A stretch of DNA of 42,438 nt, from NCBI RefSeq assembly GCF_000712295.1, contig NZ_JMKI01000060.1, positions 1-42,438 of the forward strand. Reading direction: 5' to 3'. Position 1 is the stretch's first letter; every line of letters begins with the position of its first letter. The notes below the pieces were generated by a model. It was not told the origin of the DNA and did not search any database. It saw only the letters and a program-made list of their open reading frames with translations. Source of the DNA: Synergistes jonesii. GTDB lineage: Bacteria; Synergistota; Synergistia; Synergistales; Synergistaceae. Made by a program: the position numbers and the translations under genes. This document shows positions 3,216 through 28,722 of the stretch, piece after piece.

Positions 3216-4931
3216 TTATTTATCATCGAAATAAATGCCTAATAACTTGTCTGTATCCTTTTCTCCAGATAACTTCATAATCACGCGTTCTTGTAATTTT
3301 TGCAGTATATCTTCTGACCAGTAAGGAGAGCTTTTTTCAAAATTCTCTGAGTTGATAGACATAATATACTGTTTCCCTGTATCAATGCTATTTTGATAAA
3401 TAAATTCCATCCATTTTGCGCGATGTCCGGCGTCTATATCGGCAAATAGTGCATTATCATGCCAGACAAAGCCAAGATCATGGTTACTGCCATGGGTCAA
3501 CAGCAGCCAGTCGTATGCTAAGGTCATCTCGTGCGTGATGCCGGTCGATTTGCCTGATTGAGCAGACACCTTTAAGTCGAATTGTATCTGGTTATTACCA
3601 CCATTAGCCGTAATGGATATGCCAGCAGGTATATCCTCCCCGAACTGTAACATCAGCCGTTGAAAGAGTCCTGACTGACAATCGAGCGGAGAGCTCGCTA
3701 CATACTTAGTCGCCTCGAAATTATCGTTTGCAATAATACTCCGTATTTTTGCCTGCTGCTGCTCCAGTGCCGCGATCTCCTTCTGAACTACTCCAAGCCG
3801 CTCTATTTCAAGCTCATGCATATTTTTTTCTTGTAGCAAAGCCTGATATTCATTTTCAGAGTGCCTATTCTTTAATTGTGCCTCCAACCGTTTCGCGGAT
3901 TCCTTTAAATGCAAATATTCATTATTTAATCTTTCATTTTCTGCCTGTATCTGTTGCTTATCACATTCAAGCCTATGTGTCCTGTTTTCTGCCATTTGCT
4001 TATGAAAAACCTCTACTTTATCGAAATGCTCTAACGCACTTTCTTTGAAAAGCTTTTTCAATCCCTCATAGAGACCTTTTAGCTCATCTGCCGTCATATC
4101 TGGGGTGTAATCCAGGGCTTTGTTTATGGAAGCTAATTGATAATTATTTATCGAGATTTTCTGAAATAATGTTTCTATCTTTTCTTCTTTGTCTTTTATT
4201 TCTCTCCGAATATCATCAAAAGCTTCAAATATGTTCATATTCTCAAGCTGCGCCTTCAGTCTCTCTAATCGTTGCTTATGAGAAGCCAGATCTGCATCTA
4301 TGCCCAGCTCGTTATTTCTGGAGTTTTTCTTTATCTCTTTATATTGTTTAATTTGATTTCTGATGTTATTCAGTTTTACAGCATTTAGTTTCTTTCGTTC
4401 TGCCAGAAGGTAGGCTGCACCCAACAAATAGAGAGAACGAATAGTTGCGTCACTGGGCTTCTGATCGCTGCTGACAGGATAAATTTCATCTGAAATATCC
4501 TCACGTCTGTGCCTCATGAAGCGAGTGATGAGACTTCTGAATGATAGACCGCTTACATTTTTATCAATTAAGAATGGTCCGTTTCCATCAAAAAATTTTT
4601 GTAGCCGAGCAAGCTTTATAGCCTTGTCATCCAAAGCAAGCGTATTATTACCGACTGAGCGTTCAATCCGATGATTTTGTCCATTTAACTCAAACTCAAG
4701 AAAGAACGACCATTCTTTTGGGATTTTCTTTAAACCTTCGTTGCTATTCGCAGCTAGACAGAAATTTACCAGGCGCAGCGCCGTAGTTTTACCTACGCCA
4801 TTACAATTCCCCTTAAGAGAAGCATTTTCGCCGGATTGAGATGTCTCTCCCATAATGATAGACAGCCCAGTCGGATTGAACTGTATATCGTGGAACGATG
4901 GGTTGTTAGAATAAAGTTTTAACAGTTTCAT
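3216..4931 (-). CDS. ABC-3C system ATPase, DUF2326 family
   Basis: This 571-residue SMC-like ATPase belongs to the DUF2326 family, the ABC ATPase of ABC three-component (ABC-3C) conflict systems. The P-loop region is GNCNGVGKTT (about 41-50), embedded in an early strand and a GETSQSGENASLKG segment. A coiled coil fills roughly residues 190-400. The C-terminal half carries the second ATPase half (MTLAYDWLLLTHGSN, GFVWHDNALFADID). These ATPases are thought to sense invading nucleic acid and switch on an effector; that is a family inference. ATG at 4931 overlaps the end of the middle-component gene by 26 bases, pointing to coupled translation. Confidence 0.88.
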   Translation of the reverse strand: MKLLKLYSNNPSFHDIQFNPTGLSIIMGETSQSGENASLKGNCNGVGKTTALRLVNFCLAANSNEGLKKIPKEWSFFLEFELNGQNHRIERSVGNNTLALDDKAIKLARLQKFFDGNGPFLIDKNVSGLSFRSLITRFMRHRREDISDEIYPVSSDQKPSDATIRSLYLLGAAYLLAERKKLNAVKLNNIRNQIKQYKEIKKNSRNNELGIDADLASHKQRLERLKAQLENMNIFEAFDDIRREIKDKEEKIETLFQKISINNYQLASINKALDYTPDMTADELKGLYEGLKKLFKESALEHFDKVEVFHKQMAENRTHRLECDKQQIQAENERLNNEYLHLKESAKRLEAQLKNRHSENEYQALLQEKNMHELEIERLGVVQKEIAALEQQQAKIRSIIANDNFEATKYVASSPLDCQSGLFQRLMLQFGEDIPAGISITANGGNNQIQFDLKVSAQSGKSTGITHEMTLAYDWLLLTHGSNHDLGFVWHDNALFADIDAGHRAKWMEFIYQNSIDTGKQYIMSINSENFEKSSPYWSEDILQKLQERVIMKLSGEKDTDKLLGIYFDDK

Positions 4932-5190
4932 GTTCTATCACACATACTCTGTCGTATGACGTAAAGTCGATTTTTTTTATTGCATACAGAGTGTCCAGTG
5001 CCAATATGATATAGTCCATCGATGGCTTAAACCTCCAACCGGAGCCCTCTGAATTCAAAGCCGCGTACAGTTCGTCCGCTGTCTTAGGCGTGTCAAGCAT
5101 GGTAAGACAATGTCCAGCCAAAGCTAAGATTGACTGGTCTATCCTTACATGCTTATTGGGAATCAGGGCTAAATGGCGGTTCAAAAACAT
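4906..5190 (-). CDS. ABC-3C system middle component
   Basis: This small protein of about 94 residues lies between the REase-like gene and the DUF2326 ATPase. That is the fixed place of the middle component in ABC-3C systems, whose products commonly start with a short strand and a PNKHIRI-type motif, here IPNKHVRIDQSILALAG. It probably bridges the ATPase and the large C-terminal-domain protein. The frame also has an upstream TTG (5202) and GTG (5193); ATG at 5190 is chosen because it best fits the family start, though no strong ribosome site precedes any of them. It overlaps the upstream gene by 38 bases. Confidence 0.8.
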   Translation of the reverse strand: MFLNRHLALIPNKHVRIDQSILALAGHCLTMLDTPKTADELYAALNSEGSGWRFKPSMDYIILALDTLYAIKKIDFTSYDRVCVIEHETVKTLF

Positions 5191-6109
5191 CACAGCTTTC
5201 AAAGTATTTTGTAAAAATTATCTCGGCTGCATAGTAATAGCTTTTCTGTGTTTCAAGATCCATATCTTTAACATCTGATGGCAACATAGAACGTATCATT
5301 TCATGATAACGTATGTCCGGCGCGTTAGCAGAATAGTCATGCACTTCGTCTATTACTTTGCAATATATTCGCCTTAATAAAGCTGCTATTTTTTGTTCTT
5401 CATCTGGTGAAGAGACAAAATAATCCTCCACATCACTAACATATTTGCTATTTTCCAATATTCTATCACGAATTTTTTGAGTGAGTCCATTGCTCCTAAT
5501 TTTTTCTTCTAACTTTGGAGATACTAAAGGGCTATCAACATTTGAGCGGTGTTGCATATTTAGGAAATGAGTGAGTATATTTTTTAAATATTCATGATTA
5601 GGAATCCCGCTTCCATCAAGTGGGATATACTCTATAATTAGCATTTGCTTGTCTTGCTGAAGCTGGGAGAACATTTTGTACAAACGATCCATACCGATCG
5701 GATCGGCTGTTTGCAGATTAGGGTCCGAATCTTTTATTTTTGTAAGCTGCAAGACAACATTCGGATCGATTCCTCTCATATGATCGTTTAAAACAAAGTG
5801 GAAATGCTCGACTGGTCCCCAATGTTTTTTCAGCTTATTGTAGTCTGTGTTTAACTTTTGCACTGCGTATTGCGATACTGTTTGTTGGGACGTTGAAGGA
5901 GCTGGAGCGTATACTTGATAATATCGTTTTTCTTCTGTAATACACCCGTCATTACCGCCATCGCCTCGGTAGCTGGCAATTTTTATGAACCTTGAATCTA
6001 TGGCTATCATTATATCTGAAAAAAATTCTTGAAATTCCACGCCGGATTTCTGATGCACACGCAGTTCAAAATAATCTCGTATCTGTCGTTCCATGATATG
6101 GGTTGACAC
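5153..6109 (-). CDS. ABC-3C system large component with REase-like N-terminus
   Basis: This 318-residue protein is the third ABC-3C component. Its N-terminus resembles an Mrr-like restriction-endonuclease fold: Glu25 in GVEFQEFF, then RGDGGNDGCI (48-57) and RYYQVYAP (62-69). Where Mrr-type nucleases have Q-x-K, this one has Q-V-Y, so cleavage may be lost or altered, as is common in this family. The C-terminal part should contact the middle component. GTG at 6109 follows AAGGAGGATG at good spacing and is a clear start. It is the first gene of the three-gene set, 61 bases after the FRG gene. Confidence 0.82.
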   Translation of the reverse strand: MSTHIMERQIRDYFELRVHQKSGVEFQEFFSDIMIAIDSRFIKIASYRGDGGNDGCITEEKRYYQVYAPAPSTSQQTVSQYAVQKLNTDYNKLKKHWGPVEHFHFVLNDHMRGIDPNVVLQLTKIKDSDPNLQTADPIGMDRLYKMFSQLQQDKQMLIIEYIPLDGSGIPNHEYLKNILTHFLNMQHRSNVDSPLVSPKLEEKIRSNGLTQKIRDRILENSKYVSDVEDYFVSSPDEEQKIAALLRRIYCKVIDEVHDYSANAPDIRYHEMIRSMLPSDVKDMDLETQKSYYYAAEIIFTKYFESCDVFEPPFSPDSQ

Positions 6110-6170
6110 TTTACATCCTCCTTGTTCCGAGCCAGTCCGCGTGCCCTGAAAAACGAAGTTCTATCTCTCT

Positions 6171-7205
6171 TTAGCTTACGTGTTGTTCTGTCTTGTTTTT
6201 GATTGGCATTATATCGTCCATTTGTACCTTTCTATAAGATGTCACCTTAGGTTGTAAGGGCTCAGTCTTGTATTTTAATTTTATTTCTTCTATGAGTTCC
6301 TGCATTTCTGGGAAAAGTGTTGATTTTGTAATATTCATACTTCCCAATTCTTCAAGCATTGTTTCTTTAACAGTATTTTTTATTTCATATAATTTAATGT
6401 CTACCCTTCTACATTTGTGCTCTTTTGAAGAGCGATAGTCTCTTGCTCCGAATAAGAGAAAACCTCCCGACTGAGCTTTTATACGCGGATTATTTATTTT
6501 AGCACTTACACAAATGCCCCCATTTAAATCTTTGTTGATATTTTTTACGTAATAGGAATTACTACAACTTGACCTTTCTTTATTTATCAGAGACATTAAA
6601 TCCTTAACAGCCTCTTCTTGTTTTTTCTTTTCATCTTCACGCATTTTATATTCCATTTTTGAATTAAATTCGTCATTCAGTTTTTCAGTAAGTTCTTCTC
6701 CCATAGCAGGCACAATAAGACCCTTTTCTTTCATATCCGTGTTAAGCATGGCAAGATTTGCATACATTGATACAAGATAGTCATCAGGCGAAAATACTTT
6801 TGAAGCGTTTATGACAAAAAATTCTCCATTATTGTCTTTGTGTTTTTCTTCTATACAAGCGAAGTAAAGAGCAACATAAGGATTTAATGTTATGTCCAGT
6901 AATCTTGTCGGTAATCCGTAATGTTGAAGTTTTACCAAACTATCAAAAGTTGTTTTGTCTTCCTCTAAAAAATATGCATATTTAGAAAATGCATCTCTAA
7001 CCATATTAGATTCGTTTTGTATATATCCATCATCTCTAAATAACGACGGAATAAGTTCATTATAATGCTTATTTTGCCCTCTAAAAAGCAAAGTCGAGTT
7101 ACTTTTTTTTGAACAATTCTCCTTTTTGATTACGTCCTGAAATTCTTTAAAAGTCCCTATTTCTCCTACAAATTGTATATTCTTGTATTTTTCATTGTTT
7201 TTCAT
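6171..7205 (-). CDS. FRG-domain protein
   Basis: This 344-residue protein has a clear FRG domain (PF08867): LLFRGQNKHYNELIPSLFR with the Phe-Arg-Gly at 41-43, then LQHYGLPTRLLDIT (93-106) and NPYVALYFA. The fold is related to ADP-ribosyltransferase-like domains, and FRG proteins recur in phage-defence islands; the reaction is unknown. A charged helical segment follows (about 170-205). ATG at 7205 follows AAGGAGAGGC. The coding sequence is AT-rich compared with the prophage late genes, suggesting separate acquisition. Confidence 0.87.
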   Translation of the reverse strand: MKNNEKYKNIQFVGEIGTFKEFQDVIKKENCSKKSNSTLLFRGQNKHYNELIPSLFRDDGYIQNESNMVRDAFSKYAYFLEEDKTTFDSLVKLQHYGLPTRLLDITLNPYVALYFACIEEKHKDNNGEFFVINASKVFSPDDYLVSMYANLAMLNTDMKEKGLIVPAMGEELTEKLNDEFNSKMEYKMREDEKKKQEEAVKDLMSLINKERSSCSNSYYVKNINKDLNGGICVSAKINNPRIKAQSGGFLLFGARDYRSSKEHKCRRVDIKLYEIKNTVKETMLEELGSMNITKSTLFPEMQELIEEIKLKYKTEPLQPKVTSYRKVQMDDIMPIKNKTEQHVS

Positions 7206-7520
7206 GAACAGTTGCCTCTCCTTCTTAATGACTTCAATTCGGTTTGCATCTCGTACTTTCAGTTTCCTGGCTATGGCTTGTGCTTCGGGTTTTTTACTTT
7301 TTCACCGTTACGGTTTTTCTCTCGCCCGGCGCGCTTCTGACGTCATTGCGAGGCTGGAAACGGCTGAGCATTTGGGAGCAGGGGGCCGTGGTGTAAAATA
7401 AATCCCGATGATCGTCTTTTTCCTTGCTTTTTTCTGGGTTGCTAATCATCTGCAATAAGCAAAAGATTTTGCTAATCGTAAAACGTAAAATACGCGTAGC
7501 AAAAAGTTTATAAAAGTAAT
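7206..7520. other. 315-base gap between the Fic and FRG genes
   Basis: No convincing complete gene. On the minus strand the FRG frame stays open for about 27 codons before its ATG (IARKLKVRDANRIEV) but has no start codon, so this may be a gene remnant. The segment CGTCATTGCGAGG (7340-7352) is a motif met in dispersed repeats of many bacteria. TTGCTAATC occurs twice (7439 and 7471). A separate promoter for FRG and ABC-3C could lie here, but no strong -35/-10 pair is visible. Confidence 0.4.
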
Positions 7521-8615
7521 TTATTTTTTTACGATATCCAATAAACTATGGAAACAGTATACGCTTGGCGATCTTCCTTTTCCAGTTTTGAGTTCTTTCA
7601 CGATGTCATGCTTTTTTAATTTGCGTATGATTGTGGTTACCGTGGCTCTGGGGACATTGGCATTTTTGGCAAATTCTATAACATTAAATACCGGACTCCA
7701 GAAAAGACTGTCCAGTACCGCGACAGTAAATCGCGAGTGTGTTATGGACTGTATTCTACCTTTCATTTCCTCGTACAAAGCCATGATTTGACCTGCTTTC
7801 CGCACATTTGCCACAGCCTGCTCCGTAACGGCGTTTAAGAAAAATTCAAGCCATTCATTCCATTCTTTGTTGCTTGAGATATTGCGCAGTCTTAAGTAAT
7901 ACTCGTCTCTGTGTCCTTCGAGATATGAGCTTAAATAGAACATCGGCCGCGAGATAACTTTTTTCTGATATAAGAATAATGGGATAAGTATGCGCCCCAA
8001 ACGGCCATTGCCGTCTTTAAATGGATGAAGCATCTCAAATTGGGCATGTAGAACTCCCGCTTGGATGATTGCGTCTTTCTCGTTTGCGCGGGCATATTGC
8101 TCCCAATTCTCCAGGAAACCAGAGAGCTGCATTGGGTCAGGTGGGATAAAACTTGCGTTTTCCATAGAACATCCAGCTGGACCAATCCAGTTTTGCTCGT
8201 TTCGCACTTCGCCGGGAGATTTATTTTGGCCTCGTACACTGTCCAGCAGAATACGGTGCATTTCCCGAATGAGATACATAGAAACGGGTTTGTCTTCGAG
8301 GTGTTTCTGTGCCGAGAGCAATGCCTTACGGTAATTAATGATTTCCTTGATATCTTCGTGGTTGCTTTTAGGGCTGACAAGACCGGCCTCATGCTCCAGA
8401 ACTTCATCTACCGTTGCTTGTGTGCCCTCTATCCTGGAGGATAAAACAGCTTCTTCGTTCATTAGCGGCGAGAGCATTATTGTCGGATTTACAATACCGC
8501 AAAGTAACCCGTCATAACGCCCTAACATCATATTTGCCCGGGCGACAAATGTAAGTAAACGTTCGCAATCTATGATGCCCTTAAGTGGAAGCATTTCTGG
8601 AATATACGGTTCCAT
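7521..8615 (-). CDS. Fic-family AMP-transferase with C-terminal winged helix
   Basis: This 364-residue protein carries the full Fic core HPFKDGNGRLGR (197-208), whose histidine is catalytic. N-terminal to it is the class II inhibitory helix, SSRIEG around residues 59-64, matching S-x-x-x-E-G. Fic enzymes usually transfer AMP from ATP to a protein hydroxyl, and the glutamate holds the enzyme off. The C-terminus is a winged helix (VIEFAKNANVPRATVTTIIR), the common Fic-HTH layout. The reported start is ATG at 8615, 7 bases after AGGAGG; a TTG one codon upstream is too close to it. It lies in the minus-strand block between the PD-(D/E)xK and FRG genes. Autoregulation or a toxin-like defence role are both possible. 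Confidence 0.93.
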   Translation of the reverse strand: MEPYIPEMLPLKGIIDCERLLTFVARANMMLGRYDGLLCGIVNPTIMLSPLMNEEAVLSSRIEGTQATVDEVLEHEAGLVSPKSNHEDIKEIINYRKALLSAQKHLEDKPVSMYLIREMHRILLDSVRGQNKSPGEVRNEQNWIGPAGCSMENASFIPPDPMQLSGFLENWEQYARANEKDAIIQAGVLHAQFEMLHPFKDGNGRLGRILIPLFLYQKKVISRPMFYLSSYLEGHRDEYYLRLRNISSNKEWNEWLEFFLNAVTEQAVANVRKAGQIMALYEEMKGRIQSITHSRFTVAVLDSLFWSPVFNVIEFAKNANVPRATVTTIIRKLKKHDIVKELKTGKGRSPSVYCFHSLLDIVKK

Positions 8616-8626
8616 CAAAAATCCTC

Positions 8627-8656
8627 CTAAAAGTTCCTCCTACCTTGCAAATTCAT
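8627..8656 (-). CDS. Possible 9-residue leader peptide before fic
   Basis: A short frame (MNLQGRRNF) sits between the PD-(D/E)xK gene and fic, with its own GGAGG upstream. It reads two adjacent AGG arginine codons, and its stop codon overlaps the fic ribosome site. Tandem AGG codons can stall ribosomes where the cognate tRNA is scarce. This may couple fic translation to leader translation, or may be chance. Confidence 0.25.
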   Translation of the reverse strand: MNLQGRRNF

Positions 8657-8675
8657 AATGTCGCCCTCCTACTTG

Positions 8676-9767
8676 CTATTTATCATTACGGTCATTAAAA
8701 TATTTTTCTGTTACTTTAACTAATTGTTCTGTATAATTATATAAATCACCTATATTCTCTAACGGATACCTTGTTTCTTTTTTTACTTCATCGAATATAC
8801 CGACAGAAGCACCTTTAGTGTTGAAATATAGTCTGCAAATAGGTAGCCTGTTATTGTCATCGAAAATAATTCCGCAATAACTCTGCGTGTCGCGCATTGC
8901 CACACGGTCTATAGGGACAATCCGGCATAAGATTGCGCGGATTATATTAAAGGCGTCAATTTCTTCTTGGGTAGTTATAATTTTGCCTTTTTCATTCTCT
9001 TCTGCTGTTGGTGTTTCTGAAACCGTCTCTGGCGGCATCGAAGCAGAGGCTTTTTCTTCTTGTAGGGCAGAGGCGAGACGGTCGCTCACCCTATCGCTTA
9101 TAAACTGCGAAAGAGCTTTTTTGGTGATTGCCTTAAATTTTTCTAAAGATGGAGCGGTAAGCCTTCTATCATACACCTGCTTCGTAAGCAACTTCGTAAA
9201 GTCCTCATCCGGATCGGCAAGCATATCTGCAAGATAGTTTTTCATCTCATTTGTATATTTTAATTCCTCAGCTGCGGGAATAATTGCATCAATGCTGAAT
9301 GCATTTTTACTGTATTTTTTAAGCTCTCGAAGTGCTGTTTCATTCACATCGTTGATATTGAATTTCAAAAAAGGTTTATTATCCAATTGCTTTGATTCGT
9401 CAAGGTCTGCATAAAACTCATATTCTACGCCATTTGTAAGAATGCCGATCCTTGCGGGCACCACCATGAAGTAACGCGCAAGCTGTACACGATGGTCCTG
9501 TGTAAGATCACCACCGCTCCACTTACACTCAATTAACATTATGGGCTCATTGTTTTTCATAATTGCATAGTCAATTTTTTCGCCCTTGCGGTCAACAATA
9601 TCAGCCACGAATTCAGGAACGACCTCTGCAGGGTTAAATACATCATATCCAAGTGCTTGGATAAAAGGCATCACAAGGGCGGTTTTTGTTGCTTCTTCAG
9701 TCTGAATACTCGCCCCCATGTTCTTATTGCGTTGAACAATAACTTTTATTGCGTCAATAAGCTCCAT
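8676..9767 (-). CDS. PD-(D/E)xK nuclease-like protein (HsdR-N type)
   Basis: This 363-residue protein has the type I restriction HsdR-N-like nuclease fold: a lead helix with EEATKTALVMPFIQALGYDV (24-43), Asp66 in KIDYAIM, then IECKW with Glu80 and Lys82. The motor and specificity parts of a type I enzyme are missing. A second conserved domain follows (about 255-360, ILCRIVPIDRVAMRDTQSY). Stand-alone genes like this are common beside phage repressors and in defence clusters; the target is unknown. ATG at 9767 follows GAGGAGG. Its start is only 28 bases from the repressor stop, so it is probably co-transcribed with the repressor. Confidence 0.85.
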   Translation of the reverse strand: MELIDAIKVIVQRNKNMGASIQTEEATKTALVMPFIQALGYDVFNPAEVVPEFVADIVDRKGEKIDYAIMKNNEPIMLIECKWSGGDLTQDHRVQLARYFMVVPARIGILTNGVEYEFYADLDESKQLDNKPFLKFNINDVNETALRELKKYSKNAFSIDAIIPAAEELKYTNEMKNYLADMLADPDEDFTKLLTKQVYDRRLTAPSLEKFKAITKKALSQFISDRVSDRLASALQEEKASASMPPETVSETPTAEENEKGKIITTQEEIDAFNIIRAILCRIVPIDRVAMRDTQSYCGIIFDDNNRLPICRLYFNTKGASVGIFDEVKKETRYPLENIGDLYNYTEQLVKVTEKYFNDRNDK

Positions 9768-9795: not shown

Positions 9796-10512
9796 TTAAA
9801 TCACTGGTTTCGGTTTTGAAACTCGGATTATTCGCAAGACCCTCCCATAGACTAAAAAGAACGAATCCACGTTGACTTGGATGTCCATGTAGTCCCTATT
9901 GGTAGAGCGAAGAATCGGCGGTTTGCCTTCTCCCTGGCTGACCATACCCTTCACCATGAGCCGCCCGTCCAAGCAGACGACCATGACATTGCCGCTCACC
10001 CAATCATGGCTGTGGTTGAACACGACGATGTCGCCGTCATGTATCTGCGGCTCCATGCTGTCACCCTCTACCGTCATGCAGCTGAGCGATTTGTCAGAAT
10101 AAAATGCGGACAGCTCTGCGTCGAATACCGGCCACGTGCCGACGAATTCAAGCTCTGGCGCGTCGACGTCGTAGTTATTGCCGTTACCCGCCGAAAGGCG
10201 TATTTCTGGCGATACCATAGGCACCATCAGGATATTCTCAGGCGGTATGGGGCGCACGTTAGATTGAAGCTCCAGATCCGGCGTGCCCACACGGGACGCC
10301 TGCGGCGGCGTTGGATCGTCGGTCTCACCCATCAGATAGGCGACGCTGGTGTTGAGGGCGGAGGCGAGGCGCTGTTTTGTCTCATCGTCCGGCTCGTTTA
10401 TGTTATTCTTCCAACGCGATAAGGTAGCCCCCGTAACATTAATAATGTCCAACAATTCATTAGTTTTTATTCTTATTTCCTTTTGTCTGAGAGAAATCCT
10501 TTCGCCTATCAA
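9796..10512 (-). CDS. CI-type repressor (XRE HTH plus S24 peptidase)
   Basis: The N-terminal XRE helix-turn-helix (about 15-65, VTGATLSRWKNNINEP) is joined to a C-terminal LexA/S24 self-cleaving domain. The catalytic serine lies in GDSMEPQIHDGD and the lysine in RLMVKGM. Such proteins repress lytic genes and are inactivated by RecA-stimulated autocleavage. TTG at 10512 is chosen because it lies 7 bases from AAAGGAGG; a TTG two codons earlier is too close. It is divergent from cro with operators between. As the first gene of the minus-strand block it could co-express the defence genes in lysogens. Confidence 0.93.
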   Translation of the reverse strand: MIGERISLRQKEIRIKTNELLDIINVTGATLSRWKNNINEPDDETKQRLASALNTSVAYLMGETDDPTPPQASRVGTPDLELQSNVRPIPPENILMVPMVSPEIRLSAGNGNNYDVDAPELEFVGTWPVFDAELSAFYSDKSLSCMTVEGDSMEPQIHDGDIVVFNHSHDWVSGNVMVVCLDGRLMVKGMVSQGEGKPPILRSTNRDYMDIQVNVDSFFLVYGRVLRIIRVSKPKPVI

Positions 10513-10670
10513 GCTCAACCCTCCTTTGTAATTATAAGGATACGAAAAGCGTAATATTTTGGCAATCGCGTTTCTTGTAATTGCATATTACATAAAACGA
10601 AATATGGGCTTTTAGACCTATTGAATTATTACATATTGCGTAATATTATGTAATGCAAGGAGGTGAGAAA
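10513..10670. promoter_or_regulatory. cI/cro switch: divergent promoters and operators
   Basis: A recurring half-site GTAAT/ATTAC marks the operators. A perfect GTAAT-N5-ATTAC palindrome lies at 10577-10591. Further half-sites are at 10528, 10551, 10628-10632 (ATTAC), 10640 and 10650. For the repressor, TTGCCA (10560-10565, minus) and TATCCT (10537-10542) are 17 apart. For cro, TTGAAT (10621-10626) and TATTAT (10644-10649) are 17 apart, and two half-sites overlap that -10. Binding at these sites would control both promoters. Confidence 0.7.
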
Positions 10671-10904
10671 ATGAATTTAGACAGGATTATGAAAGATAAA
10701 AAAATTACGAATATCGTAATAGCAAAACGCTTTAATACAACAACTGCAACTGTATCACGCTGGCGCAATGGCGTAAATAATCCAGATCCAAGCATTCTGC
10801 CCGAGCTTTGTGATTATCTCGGCTGCACGTTGGACGAACTTCTGCGCGACGACGTAAACCCTACGTCGTCCCCGTCTGCGAAAACGGGCGGGGAGACGGC
10901 ATAG
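10671..10904 (+). CDS. Cro-like XRE regulator
   Basis: This 77-residue protein is a single XRE helix-turn-helix domain: IAKRFNTTTATVSRWRNGV is the recognition unit, followed by PSILPELCDYLGCTLDELL. It is divergent from the repressor and is therefore the expected Cro partner that shuts off repressor transcription in lytic growth. ATG at 10671 lies 5 bases after AAGGAGGTG; a further ATG at 10653 lacks a ribosome site. Confidence 0.85.
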   Translation: MNLDRIMKDKKITNIVIAKRFNTTTATVSRWRNGVNNPDPSILPELCDYLGCTLDELLRDDVNPTSSPSAKTGGETA

Positions 10905-11056
10905 CTGAGGCGCGGGAACTTTCCGAGGCGTATGCGGGATTTTATTTCGGCATCGAGGAAGCACTCGACCTTGGAGCAGACGGCCGCATCGACGAACCGG
11001 GAACTCGCGGCTCGGCTGAGCGGCTGATGAACGCACTATCCGCCGCGCTGGCGTAA
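10901..11056 (+). CDS. Possible 51-residue protein with non-standard start
   Basis: A frame overlapping the end of cro encodes an alanine- and glutamate-rich product (SEAYAGFYFGIEEALDLGA) that looks like real protein. It has no ATG, GTG or TTG in a useful place. The best start is ATA at 10901, 5 bases after GGGGAG, and this would be a rare AUA start. Alternatively the gene is the shifted tail of a once longer cro, or has lost its start. No family is recognised. Confidence 0.35.
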   Translation: MAEARELSEAYAGFYFGIEEALDLGADGRIDEPGTRGSAERLMNALSAALA

Positions 11057-11065
11057 TTGGAAGGT

Positions 11066-11090
11066 GCACCATGACAATCGAATACCGGGC
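11066..11090 (+). repeat. 25-bp early-region repeat, copy 1
   Basis: First of three identical 25-base copies (others at 11920-11944 and, inverted, 12513-12537). The sequence begins GCACCATGACAATCGAA and ends TACCGGGC. Each copy lies 25-41 bases before a small gene read in the same direction, here the RHH gene at 11124. Similarity stops sharply at both edges. Confidence 0.9.
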
Positions 11091-11148
11091 GAAACAAAAA
11101 CTTCATGAAAGAGGGGTGGAGACGTGGAGAAAAAACAGAGCACGGTAA
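11071..11148 (+). CDS. Possible 25-residue protein starting in the 25-bp repeat
   Basis: ATG at 11071, inside the repeat, is preceded by GGAAGGTG at 4 bases. The frame encodes a basic peptide (MTIEYRAKQKLHERGVETW) and overlaps the RHH start by 25 bases, so translation could be coupled. In the two other repeat copies the same ATG gives only 8 and 10 codons. It could be a leader peptide or the original gene whose 5' end was copied elsewhere. Confidence 0.35.
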   Translation: MTIEYRAKQKLHERGVETWRKNRAR

Positions 11149-11306
11149 TCAACATAAGGCTTGACGACGATACCGTGCGTAGGGTTGACGAGTGCGCGGC
11201 ACGGGTGGATAGGAGCCGGTCAAATCTTATTCGGCATTTGATTTTAACAGGGCTGGATGCGCTTCAAGATAACGCTCGATTGCGTCCTTCAGCAACCAGC
11301 TCATAG
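11124..11306 (+). CDS. Ribbon-helix-helix protein A (plus strand)
   Basis: This 60-residue protein has an Arc/MetJ-type ribbon-helix-helix fold: strand VINIRLDDDTV, then helices with VDECAARVDRSRSNLIRHLI. RHH proteins bind DNA as dimers through the paired strands, usually as repressors or antitoxins. GTG at 11124 follows GAGGGGTGGAG. The last 80 bases overlap the 3' end of a convergent RHH gene (11227-11400), so the two mRNAs are complementary there. Confidence 0.75.
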   Translation: MEKKQSTVINIRLDDDTVRRVDECAARVDRSRSNLIRHLILTGLDALQDNARLRPSATSS

Positions 11307-11400
11307 TATTGCTAATGCTTCGGTCTTCGGCAGAGGCAATCAGCAGTAGTTTTTCGTCAACAGTATCATCGATTCTCATGTTCCTGACTTTTGTCGTCAT
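11227..11400 (-). CDS. Ribbon-helix-helix protein B (minus strand)
   Basis: This 57-residue RHH protein (VRNMRIDDTVDEKLLLIASAEDRSISNTMSW) is convergent with RHH A and shares 80 bases with it. ATG at 11400 follows GGAGGTG at 6 bases; a GTG at 11409 would sit within that ribosome site. Its upstream region holds an array of GTGGTAAT repeats, the likely operator for this gene and the divergent RHH C. Confidence 0.75.
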   Translation of the reverse strand: MTTKVRNMRIDDTVDEKLLLIASAEDRSISNTMSWLLKDAIERYLEAHPALLKSNAE

Positions 11401-11437
11401 TGTTACCACCTCCGGCTACAGAATATCATAAATAGTT

Positions 11438-11509
11438 GTGGTAATTGGTGGTAATATGTGGTTGCTTTTATCATATGTTTATGATATTATTTGTGGTAGA
11501 AACAACCAC
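11438..11509. promoter_or_regulatory. 10-bp-spaced repeat array and promoter between RHH B and RHH C
   Basis: GTGGTAAT occurs at 11438-11445 and 11448-11455 with a variant GTGGTTG at 11458-11464, one helical turn apart. GTGGT (11493-11497) and ACCAC (11505-11509) form an inverted pair. For the plus strand TTGCTT (11462-11467) and TATTAT (11485-11490) are 17 apart, so the array abuts the -35 and the inverted pair overlies the transcription start. Side-by-side repeats of this length are typical RHH operators. Confidence 0.6.
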
Positions 11510-11530
11510 GACAGCATGGGAGGTGAGCCG

Positions 11531-11677
11531 ATGGAACTGATAATCAGCCAGATACGATGGCCGGCGGAGGTCTACAGGCAGGTTAAGGAGCGCGCCTATC
11601 AGGAGCGCAAGAGCGTGAACAAGATGGTGGTCGAGCTGGTGCTAGAAGCGCTGGCTAAAGACAAGAAAGTGAGGTAA
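11531..11677 (+). CDS. Arc-like ribbon-helix-helix protein C
   Basis: This 48-residue Arc/Mnt-like protein has strand IISQIRWPAEVYRQV and helices KERAYQERKSVNKMVVELV. ATG at 11531 follows GGGAGGTGAG; the frame is open upstream but lacks a ribosome site there. It is divergent from RHH B across the GTGGTAAT array, which one or both products probably bind. It is followed at 5 bases by the next small gene. Confidence 0.78.
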   Translation: MELIISQIRWPAEVYRQVKERAYQERKSVNKMVVELVLEALAKDKKVR

Positions 11678-11682
11678 TCACT

Positions 11683-11883
11683 GTGAATTACAGCGGAGAA
11701 GTTGAAATTATTTGTTACCCGGGCGGCAGCTGCCGTGTACGTATCAACATTCCGTTAGATTTTAGGCTAACCGAGGATGAAGCCGCGGAGAAGATGCGCT
11801 CGATTTGGGCAGAGTACGTTACCCCGCGGCAGAAAGGGCTCCCGCTCCCGCCAGAGCGAAAGCTGCCTTTTAAGACCGCTTGA
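11683..11883 (+). CDS. Unknown 66-residue protein
   Basis: GTG at 11683 lies just after the RHH C stop codon, with GTGAGG as ribosome site inside the previous gene. The product is compact, with a strand-rich first half (GEVEIICYPGGSCRVRINIP) and a helix (TEDEAAEKMRSIWAEYV). It probably forms an operon with RHH C. No family is recognised and the first half contains only two cysteines. Confidence 0.55.
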   Translation: MNYSGEVEIICYPGGSCRVRINIPLDFRLTEDEAAEKMRSIWAEYVTPRQKGLPLPPERKLPFKTA

Positions 11884-11919
11884 TTATTTTGTCAAAGCAG
11901 CCGCTGAGTGGGCGACAAA

Positions 11920-11944
11920 GCACCATGACAATCGAATACCGGGC
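11920..11944 (+). repeat. 25-bp early-region repeat, copy 2
   Basis: Identical to the copy at 11066-11090 over 25 bases, with unrelated flanks. It ends 25 bases before the TTG start of the small gene at 11970. The internal ATG opens only an 8-codon frame here. Confidence 0.9.
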
Positions 11945-11969
11945 ATATTAAATTTAAGGGGGTGTGATA

Positions 11970-12140
11970 TTGGAATCTACGCTTATTGCTGCAATAGAAA
12001 ATATGACAGAACAGATTAAGCTGCTCCGTCAAGATTTTCAAGAATTCGAACATATAAATATAGAAATCGGAAATCCATCATTAACAAAAGAGCAAGAGAG
12101 AGCTATTGGCAATCAACTTCAACGTCTCCTGACAAGGTAA
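11970..12140 (+). CDS. Unknown 56-residue helical protein
   Basis: A TTG start at 11970 follows AAGGGGGTG. The product looks like one long helix (IAAIENMTEQIKLLRQDFQE) and a shorter one, so it may form a coiled-coil dimer. Its last 38 bases overlap the end of the convergent gene at 12103-12471. No family is recognised. Confidence 0.5.
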   Translation: MESTLIAAIENMTEQIKLLRQDFQEFEHINIEIGNPSLTKEQERAIGNQLQRLLTR

Positions 12141-12471
12141 GGCCGACAATCTCATCAGTGAATAGTATTAGGCTGCCAATGTTGATTTCCCTAGAGCCGG
12201 TGATGATTTTTACATCTTTAAGGATTATATACTTGCCTTTAATACTTTCCTGAAGTTCCAATTCTTCTATCTTTTGATGAGTCTGTTCGACAACCGCCCT
12301 AATGCACTCCTCTTGCAGATTAGAGCTTCCTTTGTTAGATGAGGGTATTCCTGAAATCAATCCGGCAGAAGTAAGAAAGTTTAACCTCATATTTTTAAGA
12401 GGCGGCTCTTCTGCCCCAAACAGAGTAGAGAATGCACCAGTAAATGTTTCTTTACAAGTTAAATCTTTCAA
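12103..12471 (-). CDS. Unknown 122-residue protein, convergent
   Basis: TTG at 12471 follows AAAGGAG. The C-terminal half is strand-rich (KGKYIILKDVKIITGSREI) and the middle is helical (EECIRAVVEQTHQKIEELE). It is preceded, in its own direction, by the inverted copy of the 25-bp repeat, and its 3' end overlaps the plus-strand gene by 38 bases. It could be a small phage-encoded host-interaction protein; nothing in it is diagnostic. Confidence 0.6.
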   Translation of the reverse strand: MKDLTCKETFTGAFSTLFGAEEPPLKNMRLNFLTSAGLISGIPSSNKGSSNLQEECIRAVVEQTHQKIEELELQESIKGKYIILKDVKIITGSREINIGSLILFTDEIVGLTLSGDVEVDCQ

Positions 12472-12512
12472 AATGGGGCTCCTTTCATTTCTATAACCCC
12501 TATAAAAAACAA

Positions 12513-12537
12513 GCCCGGTATTCGATTGTCATGGTGC
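12513..12537 (-). repeat. 25-bp early-region repeat, copy 3 (inverted)
   Basis: The reverse complement of the repeat at 11066 and 11920, identical over 25 bases. It lies 41 bases before the TTG start of the minus-strand gene at 12471, so again it sits upstream of a gene in the same direction. Copies 2 and 3 face each other around the two convergent genes. Confidence 0.9.
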
Positions 12538-12571
12538 ATATAGCACAGCGCAAAAGCTTGGAGGTGAGGAT

Positions 12572-12754
12572 GTGGAGAATATAAAAAGCATATTGCATAC
12601 GCAGCTACGGATAGATCCAAGCTTATGGAAAACGGTCAAGCACGAAGCCGTTGATAATAGCGTATCCACAAATCAAATGGCTATTATCTTGATTTCAGAG
12701 GCTCTGGAAGCGCGCCATGCTCATTCTCATAACGTTCTACCTCGGACTGGATGA
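12572..12754 (+). CDS. Ribbon-helix-helix-like protein D (plus strand)
   Basis: This 60-residue product has an RHH-like pattern: strand LHTQLRIDPSLW, then helices KTVKHEAVDNSVSTNQMAIIL. GTG at 12572 follows TTGGAGGTGAGG. Its last 71 bases overlap the 3' end of convergent RHH E. The start GTGGAGAA is the same as in RHH A, suggesting a distant common origin of the two pairs. Confidence 0.65.
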   Translation: MENIKSILHTQLRIDPSLWKTVKHEAVDNSVSTNQMAIILISEALEARHAHSHNVLPRTG

Positions 12755-12869
12755 TCCTTGATGCGAAGGCGTTAAACGATTCGTCGTAAACAGCGGCTAA
12801 AATTTTAGCTTTTGCAAAGAGCCGATTATCAATTCTCAACTGAGTGGCAACAATGTCTGACAACTGCAT
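12684..12869 (-). CDS. Ribbon-helix-helix-like protein E (minus strand)
   Basis: A 61-residue RHH-like protein (IVATQLRIDNRLFAKAKILA, then ESFNAFASRII) convergent with RHH D. TQLRID is shared with RHH D, so the partners look like paralogues. ATG at 12869 has only a weak GGGGG ribosome site. The region upstream contains the inverted pair CTAT/ATAG (12900-12910), a possible operator. Confidence 0.65.
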   Translation of the reverse strand: MQLSDIVATQLRIDNRLFAKAKILAAVYDESFNAFASRIIQSEVERYENEHGALPEPLKSR

Positions 12870-12902
12870 AACCCCCTATGTAATATGATACTAAACAACC
12901 TA

Positions 12903-12931
12903 TTGCATAGTAAAATAAGTTGTGCTAATAT
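12903..12931 (+). promoter_or_regulatory. Probable early-operon promoter
   Basis: TTGCAT (12903-12908) and TAATAT (12926-12931) are 17 apart, about 60 bases before the gene at 12992. The -35 lies within the inverted sequence CTATTGCATAG. The motif TTGCTAATA / TGTGCTAATATT occurs twice nearby (12921 and 12943). This probably starts the plus-strand early operon and may be controlled by a neighbouring RHH protein. Confidence 0.5.
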
Positions 12932-12991
12932 TCCAGATGTAATGTTGCTAATACACCTATTAAATTTAAGCTACAGAAAGGAGACAAAAAA

Positions 12992-13252
12992 ATGACAGAG
13001 ATTGAAACAAAGCTCGATTACCTGATCGAGCTGCTTGAAAAGGAGCAGCGGGGGCTGCGGCGTTTTCTTACGCGCGACGAGGCGGCGGAGTATATGGGTA
13101 TGAGCGGCTATACGCTGGACGAATATCAGCGCAAAGGCACGCTGCAGATCCCGTCGGTGAAGATCGGCAAAATGGTGCGGTACGACCTGAAGGATATCGA
13201 CCGCTACGCCGACGGACTGCCGAGAAGGGAGCGTGTGAAAGGGGAAAGGTAA
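12992..13252 (+). CDS. Excisionase-type helix-turn-helix protein
   Basis: This 86-residue protein has a short N-terminal coiled coil (ETKLDYLIELLEKEQ) and a MerR/AlpA-like winged helix-turn-helix (RDEAAEYMGMSGYTLDEYQR, then IPSVKIGKMVRYD). This fits the helix_turn_helix_17 excisionase-type family. It could help the integrase in excision or act as an early regulator. ATG at 12992 follows GAAAGGAG. The next gene starts immediately after its stop codon. Confidence 0.75.
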   Translation: MTEIETKLDYLIELLEKEQRGLRRFLTRDEAAEYMGMSGYTLDEYQRKGTLQIPSVKIGKMVRYDLKDIDRYADGLPRRERVKGER

Positions 13253-13441
13253 ATGATCATCACAGGCGGCGAACCCGGCCGCTGCGTATGCGGCAACAGA
13301 CTGGTATCGGTGATATGCGCTAACAACAAGGTAACCGTGCTCTGCCCGCAATGTTACAGGCAGACGACGCGCCGGACGCGCAAAGAAGCGGCCGCGGCGT
13401 GGGACGAAAGAAGGAGGAAAGCGGATGTTAAAAATTTTTAG
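13253..13441 (+). CDS. Small zinc-ribbon protein (Lar-like)
   Basis: This 62-residue protein has two cysteine pairs, CVCG near residue 11 and CPQC near 34, the spacing of a zinc ribbon. The C-terminal ARKEAAAAWDERRR-like stretch (here TRKEAAAAWDERRRK) is typical of Lar-family restriction-alleviation proteins, in which a zinc ribbon is followed by EAI..WN. The role here is inferred from that likeness. ATG directly follows the upstream stop codon. Confidence 0.6.
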   Translation: MIITGGEPGRCVCGNRLVSVICANNKVTVLCPQCYRQTTRRTRKEAAAAWDERRRKADVKNF

Positions 13442-15764: not shown

Positions 15765-15942
15765 AACTACGATGGACGGCGAGATGTGCGCTTCTGATTG
15801 CTACTTCTACTCGGAGAACAAGCGCAAACCCATCTGCTGGCTCGGTCGCGGCTGTGAACGGCTCCGCGACGGATACCGGACGGCTCTGTGCAAATATATG
15901 GAAGAAAACAATGACGTAAGGGGAACTGAAAAATATGCCTGA
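15736..15942 (+). CDS. Small cysteine-rich protein
   Basis: This 68-residue protein has spaced cysteines (MCASDCYFY, PICWLGRGCERL, ALCKY) suggesting a small zinc fold. ATG at 15736 follows GGGGGTCGAGG and overlaps the ASCH gene; its own end overlaps the initiator start. No family is recognised. Confidence 0.55.
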   Translation: MERYVRQEIRTTMDGEMCASDCYFYSENKRKPICWLGRGCERLRDGYRTALCKYMEENNDVRGTEKYA

Positions 15943-16819
15943 AGTGAACGAAAAAACAATGACCCCGGAAGAAACCACTTTACACATACAGGACACTCGC
16001 GATTTCTGGTTTGCGACCGTAGATATCTGCGTACTGCGCGACAAAACACTTTCCTTCAACGCCAAAGGTGTCTATGCCGTACTTGTCGCCTTTGTGGATA
16101 TCGGTACCAGAGAATGGGCGCTCAAAACCGAAACACTCGCGGCGGAGTGCGGCGTCAGCCGCCGCACGGTGATGTACGCGCTCAAAGAACTTGAAGAGCA
16201 CGGGTACATCAAACGTAATCGACGTTTTGCTGACGGACATCAGATTGCTTCAATGTATAAAATTATCGGACATAAGGCAGAGTGCAATATTTGCACCCAG
16301 CAGGAGCAGAAGCAGCCCGAACAACCAGAGTGCAAAATATGCACTCAGCAGGGTGCAAAATATGCACACCAATTACAAGAACCAGAATCAAATAATACAT
16401 TACCTACGGTAATGGAGGCTGACGCCTCCGAAGCCGAGCCGGAGGATATCGGACTCATCGAAAAAATCCCTTTGGTGATGCGCCCAACGGCGGAATATTT
16501 ATTGCTCAAAACGGGACGCAAGAGCCTGATACCCTCGGAGGTGGGTTCGCTGATGGCGCTTGAAAAAATACATCTGCCCGCGCGTATCCAGCAGGAAATC
16601 AATACCGCCGTGAAGCGGTTTAACGCGCGAGGGCGTCCACTGTCGGGCATCACCGCGGATTATCTTTACGAATCGCTTCGGCGCCAGAACTCGCGTGTGG
16701 CAAGAAAAAAGGCTCCGCCGGACAACAGCGCGGCACTGACGCAGGCGCAACAGGAGGAAGCCGAGCACGACAAGTACCTGTTTGAAAAATTCGGAAAGGG
16801 AGTCGAGCAAATTGAGTGA
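15935..16819 (+). CDS. Phage replication initiator (O-like)
   Basis: This 294-residue protein has an N-terminal winged helix-turn-helix of the HTH_36 type: LSFNAKGVYAVLVAFVD (40-56) and ETLAAECGVSRRTVMYALKE, then HGYIKRNRR. A low-complexity linker and a C-terminal helical domain (about 180-275) probably contact the loader. As in lambda gene O, repeated palindromes lie in the middle of the gene and may be the origin it binds. ATG at 15935 follows GTAAGGGG. The helicase-loader gene begins at its stop codon. Confidence 0.78.
   Translation: MPEVNEKTMTPEETTLHIQDTRDFWFATVDICVLRDKTLSFNAKGVYAVLVAFVDIGTREWALKTETLAAECGVSRRTVMYALKELEEHGYIKRNRRFADGHQIASMYKIIGHKAECNICTQQEQKQPEQPECKICTQQGAKYAHQLQEPESNNTLPTVMEADASEAEPEDIGLIEKIPLVMRPTAEYLLLKTGRKSLIPSEVGSLMALEKIHLPARIQQEINTAVKRFNARGRPLSGITADYLYESLRRQNSRVARKKAPPDNSAALTQAQQEEAEHDKYLFEKFGKGVEQIE
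16282..16414 (+). repeat. Iteron-like palindromes, candidate replication origin
   Basis: Three 15-base sites GTGCA-N5-TGCAC lie at 16282-16296, 16330-16344 and 16353-16367; the last two are identical and all cores are A/T only. An AT-rich stretch follows, and a further palindrome, CATTACC-TAC-GGTAATG, lies at 16398-16414. Repeats beside an AT-rich unwinding stretch inside an initiator gene are the layout of lambdoid origins. The function is inferred. Confidence 0.65.
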
Positions 16820-27266: not shown

Positions 27267-27274
27267 CAGGGGAT

Positions 27275-27838
27275 ATGCCGGTGACATTGCCAGACAACCC
27301 GAATACGTCTAATGCGCAGGTCGGGAAGGATTTTTTGTTGAAGATAAATCTCGGCGACGCGTCCTATCCCACTTGGACGATCATCGGCGCCCAGCGCAGC
27401 ACGGACTTGAACAGGACGGCTGACAGCATAGACGTATCGCACAAGACGTCGGGCAGCTGGAAGGGCTTCAAAGCGGGGCTCCGCGGCTGGAGTATCGACT
27501 TGGGCGGGCTCGTGCTGCTGGGCGATACGGGGTTGGAAGCGCTTGAGGCGGCGTATGAGCAGGGGATAGAGATCAACGTCTGCTTCATGTATCCGGACGG
27601 CTCTATCCAGGAGGGATGGGGCTCTATCACGGAGCTTTCGATATCCACGCCGCACGACGGAGCTGCCGAGATTTCCGGCACCATAGAAGGCAACGGGCAG
27701 CTCACGCCGCGCCGCGTAATAGAGGACGGCGGAGGCGCGCGCGTCTACGCTGGGGCGCAGGATGAGACTATAGACGGCGGCGTCGCGGACACAACGGACT
27801 ACGGCGCAGTCGTAGACGGCGGCAAGGCCGCAGACTAA
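27275..27838 (+). CDS. Major tail tube protein 1 (with C-terminal extension)
   Basis: This 187-residue TP901-1-type tail tube protein has GKDFLLKIN, DSIDVSHKTSGSWKGFKAGL, RGWSIDLGGLVLLGDTG and HDGAAEISGTIEGNG. It is a close paralogue of the next gene but continues for about 42 residues after the shared end, in an acidic, glycine- and aspartate-rich tail (GARVYAGAQDETIDGG). ATG at 27275 follows GGGGAGGTG; a GTG at 27263 is less likely. Such extensions often project from the tube. Confidence 0.9.
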   Translation: MPVTLPDNPNTSNAQVGKDFLLKINLGDASYPTWTIIGAQRSTDLNRTADSIDVSHKTSGSWKGFKAGLRGWSIDLGGLVLLGDTGLEALEAAYEQGIEINVCFMYPDGSIQEGWGSITELSISTPHDGAAEISGTIEGNGQLTPRRVIEDGGGARVYAGAQDETIDGGVADTTDYGAVVDGGKAAD

Positions 27839-27853
27839 AAGGAGGAATAAGAT

Positions 27854-28297
27854 ATGCCGGTAATACTGCCGACCAACCCGAATACGTCGAACGCGCAGAT
27901 CGGGAAGGATTTTCTATTAAAAATAAACACGGGGCAGGCGGTAAGCCCCACATGGACCACGGTCGGGGGGCAAAGGTCGGCCGATCTGAACCGCAACGCG
28001 GACAGCATAGATGTTTCGCATAAGACGTCGGGCAGCTGGAAGGGCTTCAAGGCGGGGCTGCGGGGCTGGTCGATAGACTTGGGCGGGCTGGTGTTGCTCA
28101 CCGACGCAGGCGTCGAGGCGCTGGAAACCGCCTTCGTGCAGGGCAAGGAGGTCAACATAGCGCTCTTTTACCCGGACGGCACGAAGCAGACGGGGTGGGG
28201 CTCCATAACGGAGTTTTCCATCAGCAGCCCGCACGACGGGGCGGCCGAGATAAGCGGAACCATAGAAGGCAACGGCGCGCTTAGTGAAAGGACGTAA
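27854..28297 (+). CDS. Major tail tube protein 2 (tandem paralogue)
   Basis: This 147-residue protein is very similar to tail tube protein 1 over its whole length (same NPNTSNAQ start, same DSIDVSHKTSGSWKGFKAGL block) but lacks the extension. It follows 15 bases downstream, with AAAGGAGG. The two may be mixed in one tube, like the long and short forms made by frameshifting in some phages. A strong terminator follows. Confidence 0.9.
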   Translation: MPVILPTNPNTSNAQIGKDFLLKINTGQAVSPTWTTVGGQRSADLNRNADSIDVSHKTSGSWKGFKAGLRGWSIDLGGLVLLTDAGVEALETAFVQGKEVNIALFYPDGTKQTGWGSITEFSISSPHDGAAEISGTIEGNGALSERT

Positions 28298-28325: not shown

Positions 28326-28722
28326 ATACGCCGATTTTCTCTTCAAGCGCTTCTTGCAAGACCTGCGAGAAGTTGATGTTCCGCGCTTCGGCTCTCGTAT
28401 TCAGCCACGCGGGAATGGTCAGATTTTTTCGCACCGCCTTATTGCCGTACTTGGTGGCGTAGCCGTCCATGTCGAGGACGATAAGGTTTACGAAGCCGCC
28501 TTCCTTCGGCGCGACGTCCGACATTTTGCTGGGAGCCGGCGCGGCTTTTCCGTCTTCGAGTTCGTCCAGCACCCAGCCGGACGCGGCGTCCGTAGCCATC
28601 AGAATGGCGTCTGCGAGAGAATCTCCCTGTGTCACGCACCCCGGAAGGTCGGGCACTTCAACGGTGTAAGCGCCTTTCGTTTCTTCGCAGGGGTAGAAAC
28701 AGGCCGGATAGATTAATTTCAT
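28324..28722 (-). CDS. hicB: HicB-family antitoxin, prophage copy
   Basis: This 132-residue HicB differs at four positions from the chromosomal copy at 796-1194. The RNase-H-like N-terminus and C-terminal RHH segment (TIPAWLNTRAEARNINFSQ) are both intact. ATG at 28722 follows AAAAGGAGG at 8 bases; a longer frame starting at 28752 is not preferred. It should hold HicA in check and, through the RHH domain, repress the operon. It lies antisense within the tail operon. Confidence 0.93.
   Translation of the reverse strand: MKLIYPACFYPCEETKGAYTVEVPDLPGCVTQGDSLADAILMATDAASGWVLDELEDGKAAPAPSKMSDVAPKEGGFVNLIVLDMDGYATKYGNKAVRKNLTIPAWLNTRAEARNINFSQVLQEALEEKIGV

Follow-up and report, generated by a model that had tools for sequence, protein, structure and literature searches.

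The modules of lambdoid phages have boundary or linker sequences between them. Other systems close to the sequence described here act in RNA. The RNA signal boxA brings in NusB-S10, and in rRNA it works against Rho (PMC5725501). The same text describes how boxA near a start codon represses suhB and CKO_00699, a ParE-like toxin gene, and gives a rule of less than 50 bp for this distance. Mycobacterial rRNA operons have both boxA and boxC, and NusA binds boxC (PMC6614801).

Here we describe a 25-nt sequence, GCACCATGACAATCGAATACCGGGC, which is repeated in a prophage of Synergistes jonesii. We consider it probable that this is a phage-borne rRNA antitermination element, consisting of boxA and a boxC-like part, which would act through host Nus factors and which would also be a seam between gene cassettes. 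The element is like the boxA-boxC elements of rRNA leaders and spacers in sequence over the full 25 nt, in strand and in leader position. Unlike those, it is found in putative prophage mRNA leaders, repeated and on both strands, and it has neither an rRNA promoter nor an upstream boxB-like hairpin. With the nut sites of lambda, which consist of boxA and boxB and depend on N, it shares a phage setting, several copies, a place downstream of a Cro-like gene and a boxA. Close to it in this way is also mEp021, a phage with three nut sites (PMC11893012). In contrast to lambda nut, the copies in the window (the whole stretch of 42,438 nt that was analysed) lack a boxB hairpin and have a boxA of the host rRNA type, and no N-like gene was recognised. 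The leaders of suhB and of the ParE-like toxin gene are similar in that fewer than 50 nt separate boxA from the start codon, but they repress, and they come from a different phylum with a different consensus (PMC5725501). Like the lambdoid linkers, this is a conserved short sequence at module seams; unlike them, what marks the seam in Synergistaceae has been identified as an RNA element. Phages are known to carry boxA sites, and what is new is the host-rRNA type, the lack of boxB, the repetition on both strands and the role as a seam. A literature search by titles and the beginnings of abstracts, with most subscription journals outside its range, found no paper on rRNA-type boxA in Synergistota prophages or actinophages.

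Copies of the element in the prophage

The window is a whole contig (C60) of the 2.74-Mb host genome (G000), and IMG/VR lists it as a viral record. It contains a prophage with a CI-type repressor, a Cro-like gene and a replication-initiation gene. The features around the element are the following:

9796-10518, minus strand: CI-type repressor, helix-turn-helix (HTH) plus peptidase S24 (PF00717, 8.1e-15)
10671-10904, plus strand: Cro-like HTH gene, upstream of copy 1 (PF13443, 2.2e-12; PF01381, 5.6e-9)
11066-11090, plus strand: element copy 1 in a nutR-like place after the Cro-like gene, with boxA at 11066-11077 and boxC-like CAATCGAATA at 11075-11084 (putatively assigned by alignment with rRNA leaders and the mycobacterial boxC)
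11124-11306, plus strand: CopG-type ribbon-helix-helix (RHH) gene after copy 1 (PF01402, 6.3e-8; phrog_4738, 3.5e-10)
11920-11944, plus strand: element copy 2, putative leader of the small gene 11970-12140
11970-12140, plus strand: small gene after copy 2, no family match, alternative start GTG at 11964
12103-12471, minus strand: 122-aa gene after copy 3 (phrog_3773, unknown function, 3.3e-8)
12513-12537, minus strand: element copy 3, putative leader of the leftward gene 12103-12471
15935-16819, plus strand: replication-initiation gene (phrog_270, 5.3e-16), in the same direction as copy 1 and about 4.9 kb downstream of it

A preliminary description of this DNA had reported three identical 25-mers, two on the plus strand and one on the minus strand, and all three are present at the positions it gave. 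Within three mismatches they are the only matches in the window, and 100 dinucleotide shuffles of it gave none, which rules out a chance repeat. Identity between copies 1 and 3 runs one base further (26 nt). A weak inverted match of 41 nt (83%) connects the flanks of copies 2 and 3, and the other flanking DNA is unrelated. These two copies enclose the convergent genes 11970-12140 and 12103-12471, as had been described. The start on the same strand is 33 nt from the end of copy 1 (GTG 11124), 19 or 25 nt from the end of copy 2 (GTG 11964 or TTG 11970) and 41 nt from the end of copy 3 (TTG 12471). The small gene noted earlier after each copy is thus present in the window; it does not hold as a rule, being common but not universal in relatives.

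The region 10500-13300 was scanned for other signals. The placement of the copies and the reading frames after them agree with transcribed 5' leaders on the sense strand. Promoter prediction gave 10 sites where 5.2 were expected (sd 2.6), and no site type recurs at every copy. An ordinary sigma-70 promoter was rejected, as the element's ATGACA is paired with a -10 sequence, TAAATT, at copy 2 only and the total is near that of shuffles. The five terminator-like sites (2.8 expected) are little over chance. Rfam, with E up to 1, gave no family in this region, nor did it in the part of the host 16S leader that was searched. When window DNA from 11056 to 11110 was compared with 50,697 phage records, only two weak coding matches were found. 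Sense-strand folding with up to 10 nt of flank gave weak structures for the window copies (-3.2 to -7.4 kcal/mol), and no boxB hairpin was found beside boxA. A PHROGs scan of 20 window proteins named no antiterminator; N proteins are small and diverse.

Relation to rRNA leaders

The 11-bp core of the element, CACCATGACAA, occurs seven times in the 2.74-Mb host genome, and its reversed control does not occur. Three occurrences are in rRNA leaders (contigs C5, C27 and C49), where 16S rRNA starts about 150-160 nt downstream; three are the window copies, and one is in another prophage (C37, position 40544). The fourth host 16S leader (C53) has the variant GAACCATGTCAATAGAATACGGTGT, and the host's 16S-23S spacer carries AAGAACCATGACAAGAAGCC. 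The phage element is identical to the C53 type of leader at 19 of 25 positions and to the C49 type at 17 of 25. The leader of G006, a genome of another genus, agrees at 21 of 25 positions, counted by eye. Since the element is closer to leaders of another genus, it is not a fresh copy of the host's own operon.

Similarity to rRNA leaders was also scored with a matrix trained on 18 leaders (13 unique), all from other genomes. The three copies came out on top of the window with 26.4 bits, and the fourth site had 10.3 bits. The maximum in 100 simulated first-order Markov windows was 18.8 bits, and the host's own rRNA leaders scored 24.0-24.1 bits. Training excluded the leaders of G005 and G008, which contig ends truncate, the diverged L105 and L113 with its one-base insertion, as well as L112 and L117, which are copies of leaders already used. 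L105, from G040, departs from the others after GCACCATGAC.

A sequence-only model (R1) gave matches in 38 of 52 family genomes with E up to 0.05. Because R1 was built jointly from phage and rRNA sites, it recovers those by construction, and the matrix is the independent test. The nine R1 hits in the host genome are four rRNA leaders, four prophage elements and one 5' UTR. This last hit (C37, 103227-103247, minus strand) precedes a gene whose KH and HD-type sequence suggests, by reading, RNase Y (rny). Similar leaders (L055, L056, L161 and L162) are found in G003, G004, G013 and G048. Nus control of rny through the boxA-like element in its 5' UTR is possible.

Judged by its sequence, the 25-mer is the antitermination element, boxA(-boxC), that Synergistaceae have in their rRNA leaders. 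The CAATCGAATA part presumably corresponds to boxC, the NusA site, as alignment with the mycobacterial leader suggests. A binding site had been among the earlier suggestions, and this idea gains support in RNA form, with boxA as the NusB/S10 part and the boxC-like sequence probably as the NusA part.

Occurrence in relatives

Absence from relatives was to have spoken against the preliminary description, and the element was instead found, within three mismatches, in 7 of 52 family genomes (reversed control, 0). An exact match is present in a Synergistaceae MAG record. The copies in relatives are often clustered and face inward; G009 has five, and G006 and G017 have two apiece. Across 185 genomes of the phylum, a looser pattern gave matches in 11. 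Some of these matches proved to belong to rRNA operons: the one in G084 immediately precedes 23S, and those in G006, G007, G009 and G012 fall in leaders that lie at contig ends. The match in G115 looks like a chance match in a coding region. With a wide pattern used on viral contigs, L089-L092 and L094-L096 showed no further similarity to the element and were dropped as chance; L087 was also dropped.

Downstream genes were scored for 28 sites, two of which are probably one phage. At 19 of them, an open reading frame that has 25 or more codons and a Shine-Dalgarno-like site begins within 150 nt downstream (within 60 nt at 18 of these 19). The script rule gave no directly downstream gene for the other nine, although one of these, L027, has such a gene by eye. 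Upstream on the same strand, a Cro-like HTH gene is present at 11 of 14 plus-type sites, which were chosen by hand from 24. Both L024 sites, which by reading follow RHH-type genes, and the site at L023:4302 are the exceptions. At several of the Cro-linked sites a short gene comes after the Cro-like gene and ends with its stop 9-18 nt before the element. The position after the Cro-like gene is the place of nutR in lambda, so that these 11 sites have, by position, the placement of a lambda-type nut site in the early transcript.

Proposed antitermination and the alternative of a repressive leader

The 25-mer matches the signal of host rRNA leaders, and the virus therefore probably uses the host transcription machinery on its early genes. 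In the proposed mechanism, the RNA GCACCAUGACA would bind host NusB-S10 and the overlapping RNA CAAUCGAAUA would bind NusA. RNA polymerase with the host rRNA-type Nus complex would then resist termination downstream, mainly of the Rho-dependent kind. The rightward early transcript would be the target of copy 1, after the Cro-like gene. Cargo genes would have copies 2 and 3 as leaders, one on each strand, with the same antitermination. Host factors may suffice, as there is no evident boxB hairpin or N-type protein. The host genome encodes both NusB (2.1e-30) and NusA (7.7e-115). We infer Nus-factor binding and antitermination from the resemblance to rRNA leaders. Genes on both strands overlap the element region, which is awkward for a single long antiterminated transcript.

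Position and identity favor antitermination, and the main rival is repression of the suhB kind. With boxA 20-40 nt ahead of the start codon, a Nus complex bound there would block translation and lay the message open to Rho, and the cargo genes would be kept low. The gaps in the window, which are 19-41 nt when counted from the end of the 25-mer, fit the rule of less than 50 bp in PMC5725501, and copy 1 is located before a CopG-type gene. However, copies also follow Cro-like genes in the nutR position, nine of the 28 sites have no directly downstream gene by the script rule (L027 has one by eye), and the downstream genes in relatives are unrelated cargo. Repression of this kind is a serious alternative that we nevertheless consider unlikely.

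Cassette boundaries

The preliminary description had also suggested that the repeat is a boundary for cassette exchange, and prophage comparisons agree with this, since on either side of the variable cargo the element is where homology ends. L022 2946-3782 matches L021 4131-4970, ending at the element, and L022 3754-4516 matches L021 8565-9333, beginning at the element. Between its direct copies at 4943 and 8566, L021 holds 3.6 kb more than L022. On the right side, L022 5024-5104 is similar to L021 9788-9864 and L022 5024-5114 to L088 7931-7842, both beginning at the terminal element. L022 3473-3779 is similar to L088 9092-8791, ending at the element. Homology in L007 and L023 breaks at the element too, to within a few bases, and the two copies in L024 have upstream DNA in common. 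On these alignments the element is also a seam for gene-cassette exchange. Identical copies at the edges of cargo would be homology seams for gain and loss of cassettes, with homologous recombination as the inferred route of exchange. Such a role would explain, nearly to the base, why recombination of cassettes is confined to a single place. Inversion of 11945-12512, which had been proposed, is unsupported, as the cassette common to L021 and L022 has one orientation in both genomes.

A reading with the emphasis reversed would make the element a DNA boundary or recombination sequence first and its resemblance to rRNA secondary. The breaks in homology in several pairs, the 3.6-kb insertion between direct copies in L021 and the common DNA upstream of two L024 copies all fit. 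It is improbable to us, however, because it leaves unexplained both the occurrence of the sequence in rRNA leaders and at the rny-like gene and the strand-consistent placement in leaders.

The extra DNA of L021 holds, at 4968-7841, an inserted second CI/Cro-like HTH pair with its own element, together with Abi_alpha (PF14337, 2.2e-22) and pentapeptide-repeat (3.1e-43) genes. Among nine proteins scanned with PADLOC, only that of L021:4981-5670 matched (PDC-S47); it is Abi_alpha in Pfam. Defence cargo was rejected on this result. The cargo of L088 ends at an antirepressor with Bro-N and ANT domains. To the right of copy 3 in the window there is a small gene (12572-12754) and no antirepressor.

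The right-hand copy in L021, L022, L023, L007 and L088 is preceded by (G/A)CCCGG, which pairs with the CCGGGC end. On the opposite strand this pairing makes a hairpin followed by a T-run, present at 5 of 17 folded sites (-16.8 to -17.9 kcal/mol), and L026 has a longer stem (-27.1 kcal/mol) with no clear T-run. The window copies lack this terminal-type hairpin. These right-hand copies are possible terminators at the end of the cargo on the opposite strand, while in the other direction they carry boxA.

Two other explanations of the element have little in their favor. An operator or other DNA-binding site for a phage regulator would suit an immunity region rich in HTH and RHH genes, but the element is asymmetric and common to rRNA leaders, and host rRNA operons would be bound as well, which makes it very improbable. 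A translated leader peptide, MTIEYRA, that controls the next gene had been raised earlier and is hardly credible: 22 of 24 phage-associated elements (13 loci) keep the ATG, but the other two have TTG or TCG, two more have an in-frame TAG at codon 5, most rRNA leaders have the ATG equally, and peptide length varies between 4 and 123 residues in differing frames, so selection is not on the peptide and the conserved reading frame of a leader-peptide attenuator is missing.

Similar elements in actinophages

The actinobacterial rRNA boxA-boxC 18-mer, used as a query, matched eight viral stretches, of which two are one and the same AT-rich sequence. None of the eight was found to contain rRNA. A 33-base query from one actinophage site (L147) gave 41 phage records with E up to 1, namely 26 of Mycobacterium, 14 of Streptomyces and one of Nocardia, and 40 of the 41 have no annotated gene under the match. 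Relaxing E to 10 raised the number to 146 records, among them chance-looking coding matches in E. coli phages. The right-end operon begins with a gene about 350 nt downstream of the site in Streptomyces phage Manuel and about 480 nt downstream of it in Mycobacterium phage Bongo. Actinophage sites of the rRNA boxA-boxC type (L165:1178-1203 and L166:1394-1417) are intergenic and near right genome ends of Mycobacterium and Streptomyces phages.

Actinophages carry a candidate for the equivalent actinobacterial element in intergenic DNA, and the phenomenon may therefore be general. Our broader proposal, to which we give somewhat less than even weight, is that phages of unrelated phyla each took over the rRNA boxA-boxC antiterminator of their host clade, so that early transcripts would be treated as rRNA without an antiterminator made by the phage. 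In Synergistaceae, the element would bound an island of swappable cargo between cro and the antirepressor, with the right-hand copy a terminator one way and an antiterminator the other way. An rRNA-type element in a temperate phage would let it avoid Rho-dependent silencing by simple means, with host factors only. It would also give a sequence rule: scanning little-studied phages for the rRNA boxA of their own host would point to the starts of early transcripts and to cargo islands.

Other features of the window

Pairs of small RHH-like genes, overlapping convergently, are located at 11124-11409 and 12572-12869. A leftward gene block (3216-9767) lies between an integrase-like reading frame (1792-2979) and CI and reads as defence or moron genes, with a Fic-like gene at 7521-8618 and an FRG-like gene at 6171-7205, both named by reading. 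The structural region has a tandem gene duplicate at 27272-28246 (72-83% identical, period 579). A 300-bp direct repeat at 802-1101 and 28330-28629 is 96% identical over a distance of 27.5 kb, and a reading frame at 76-687 reads as an IS256-like transposase.
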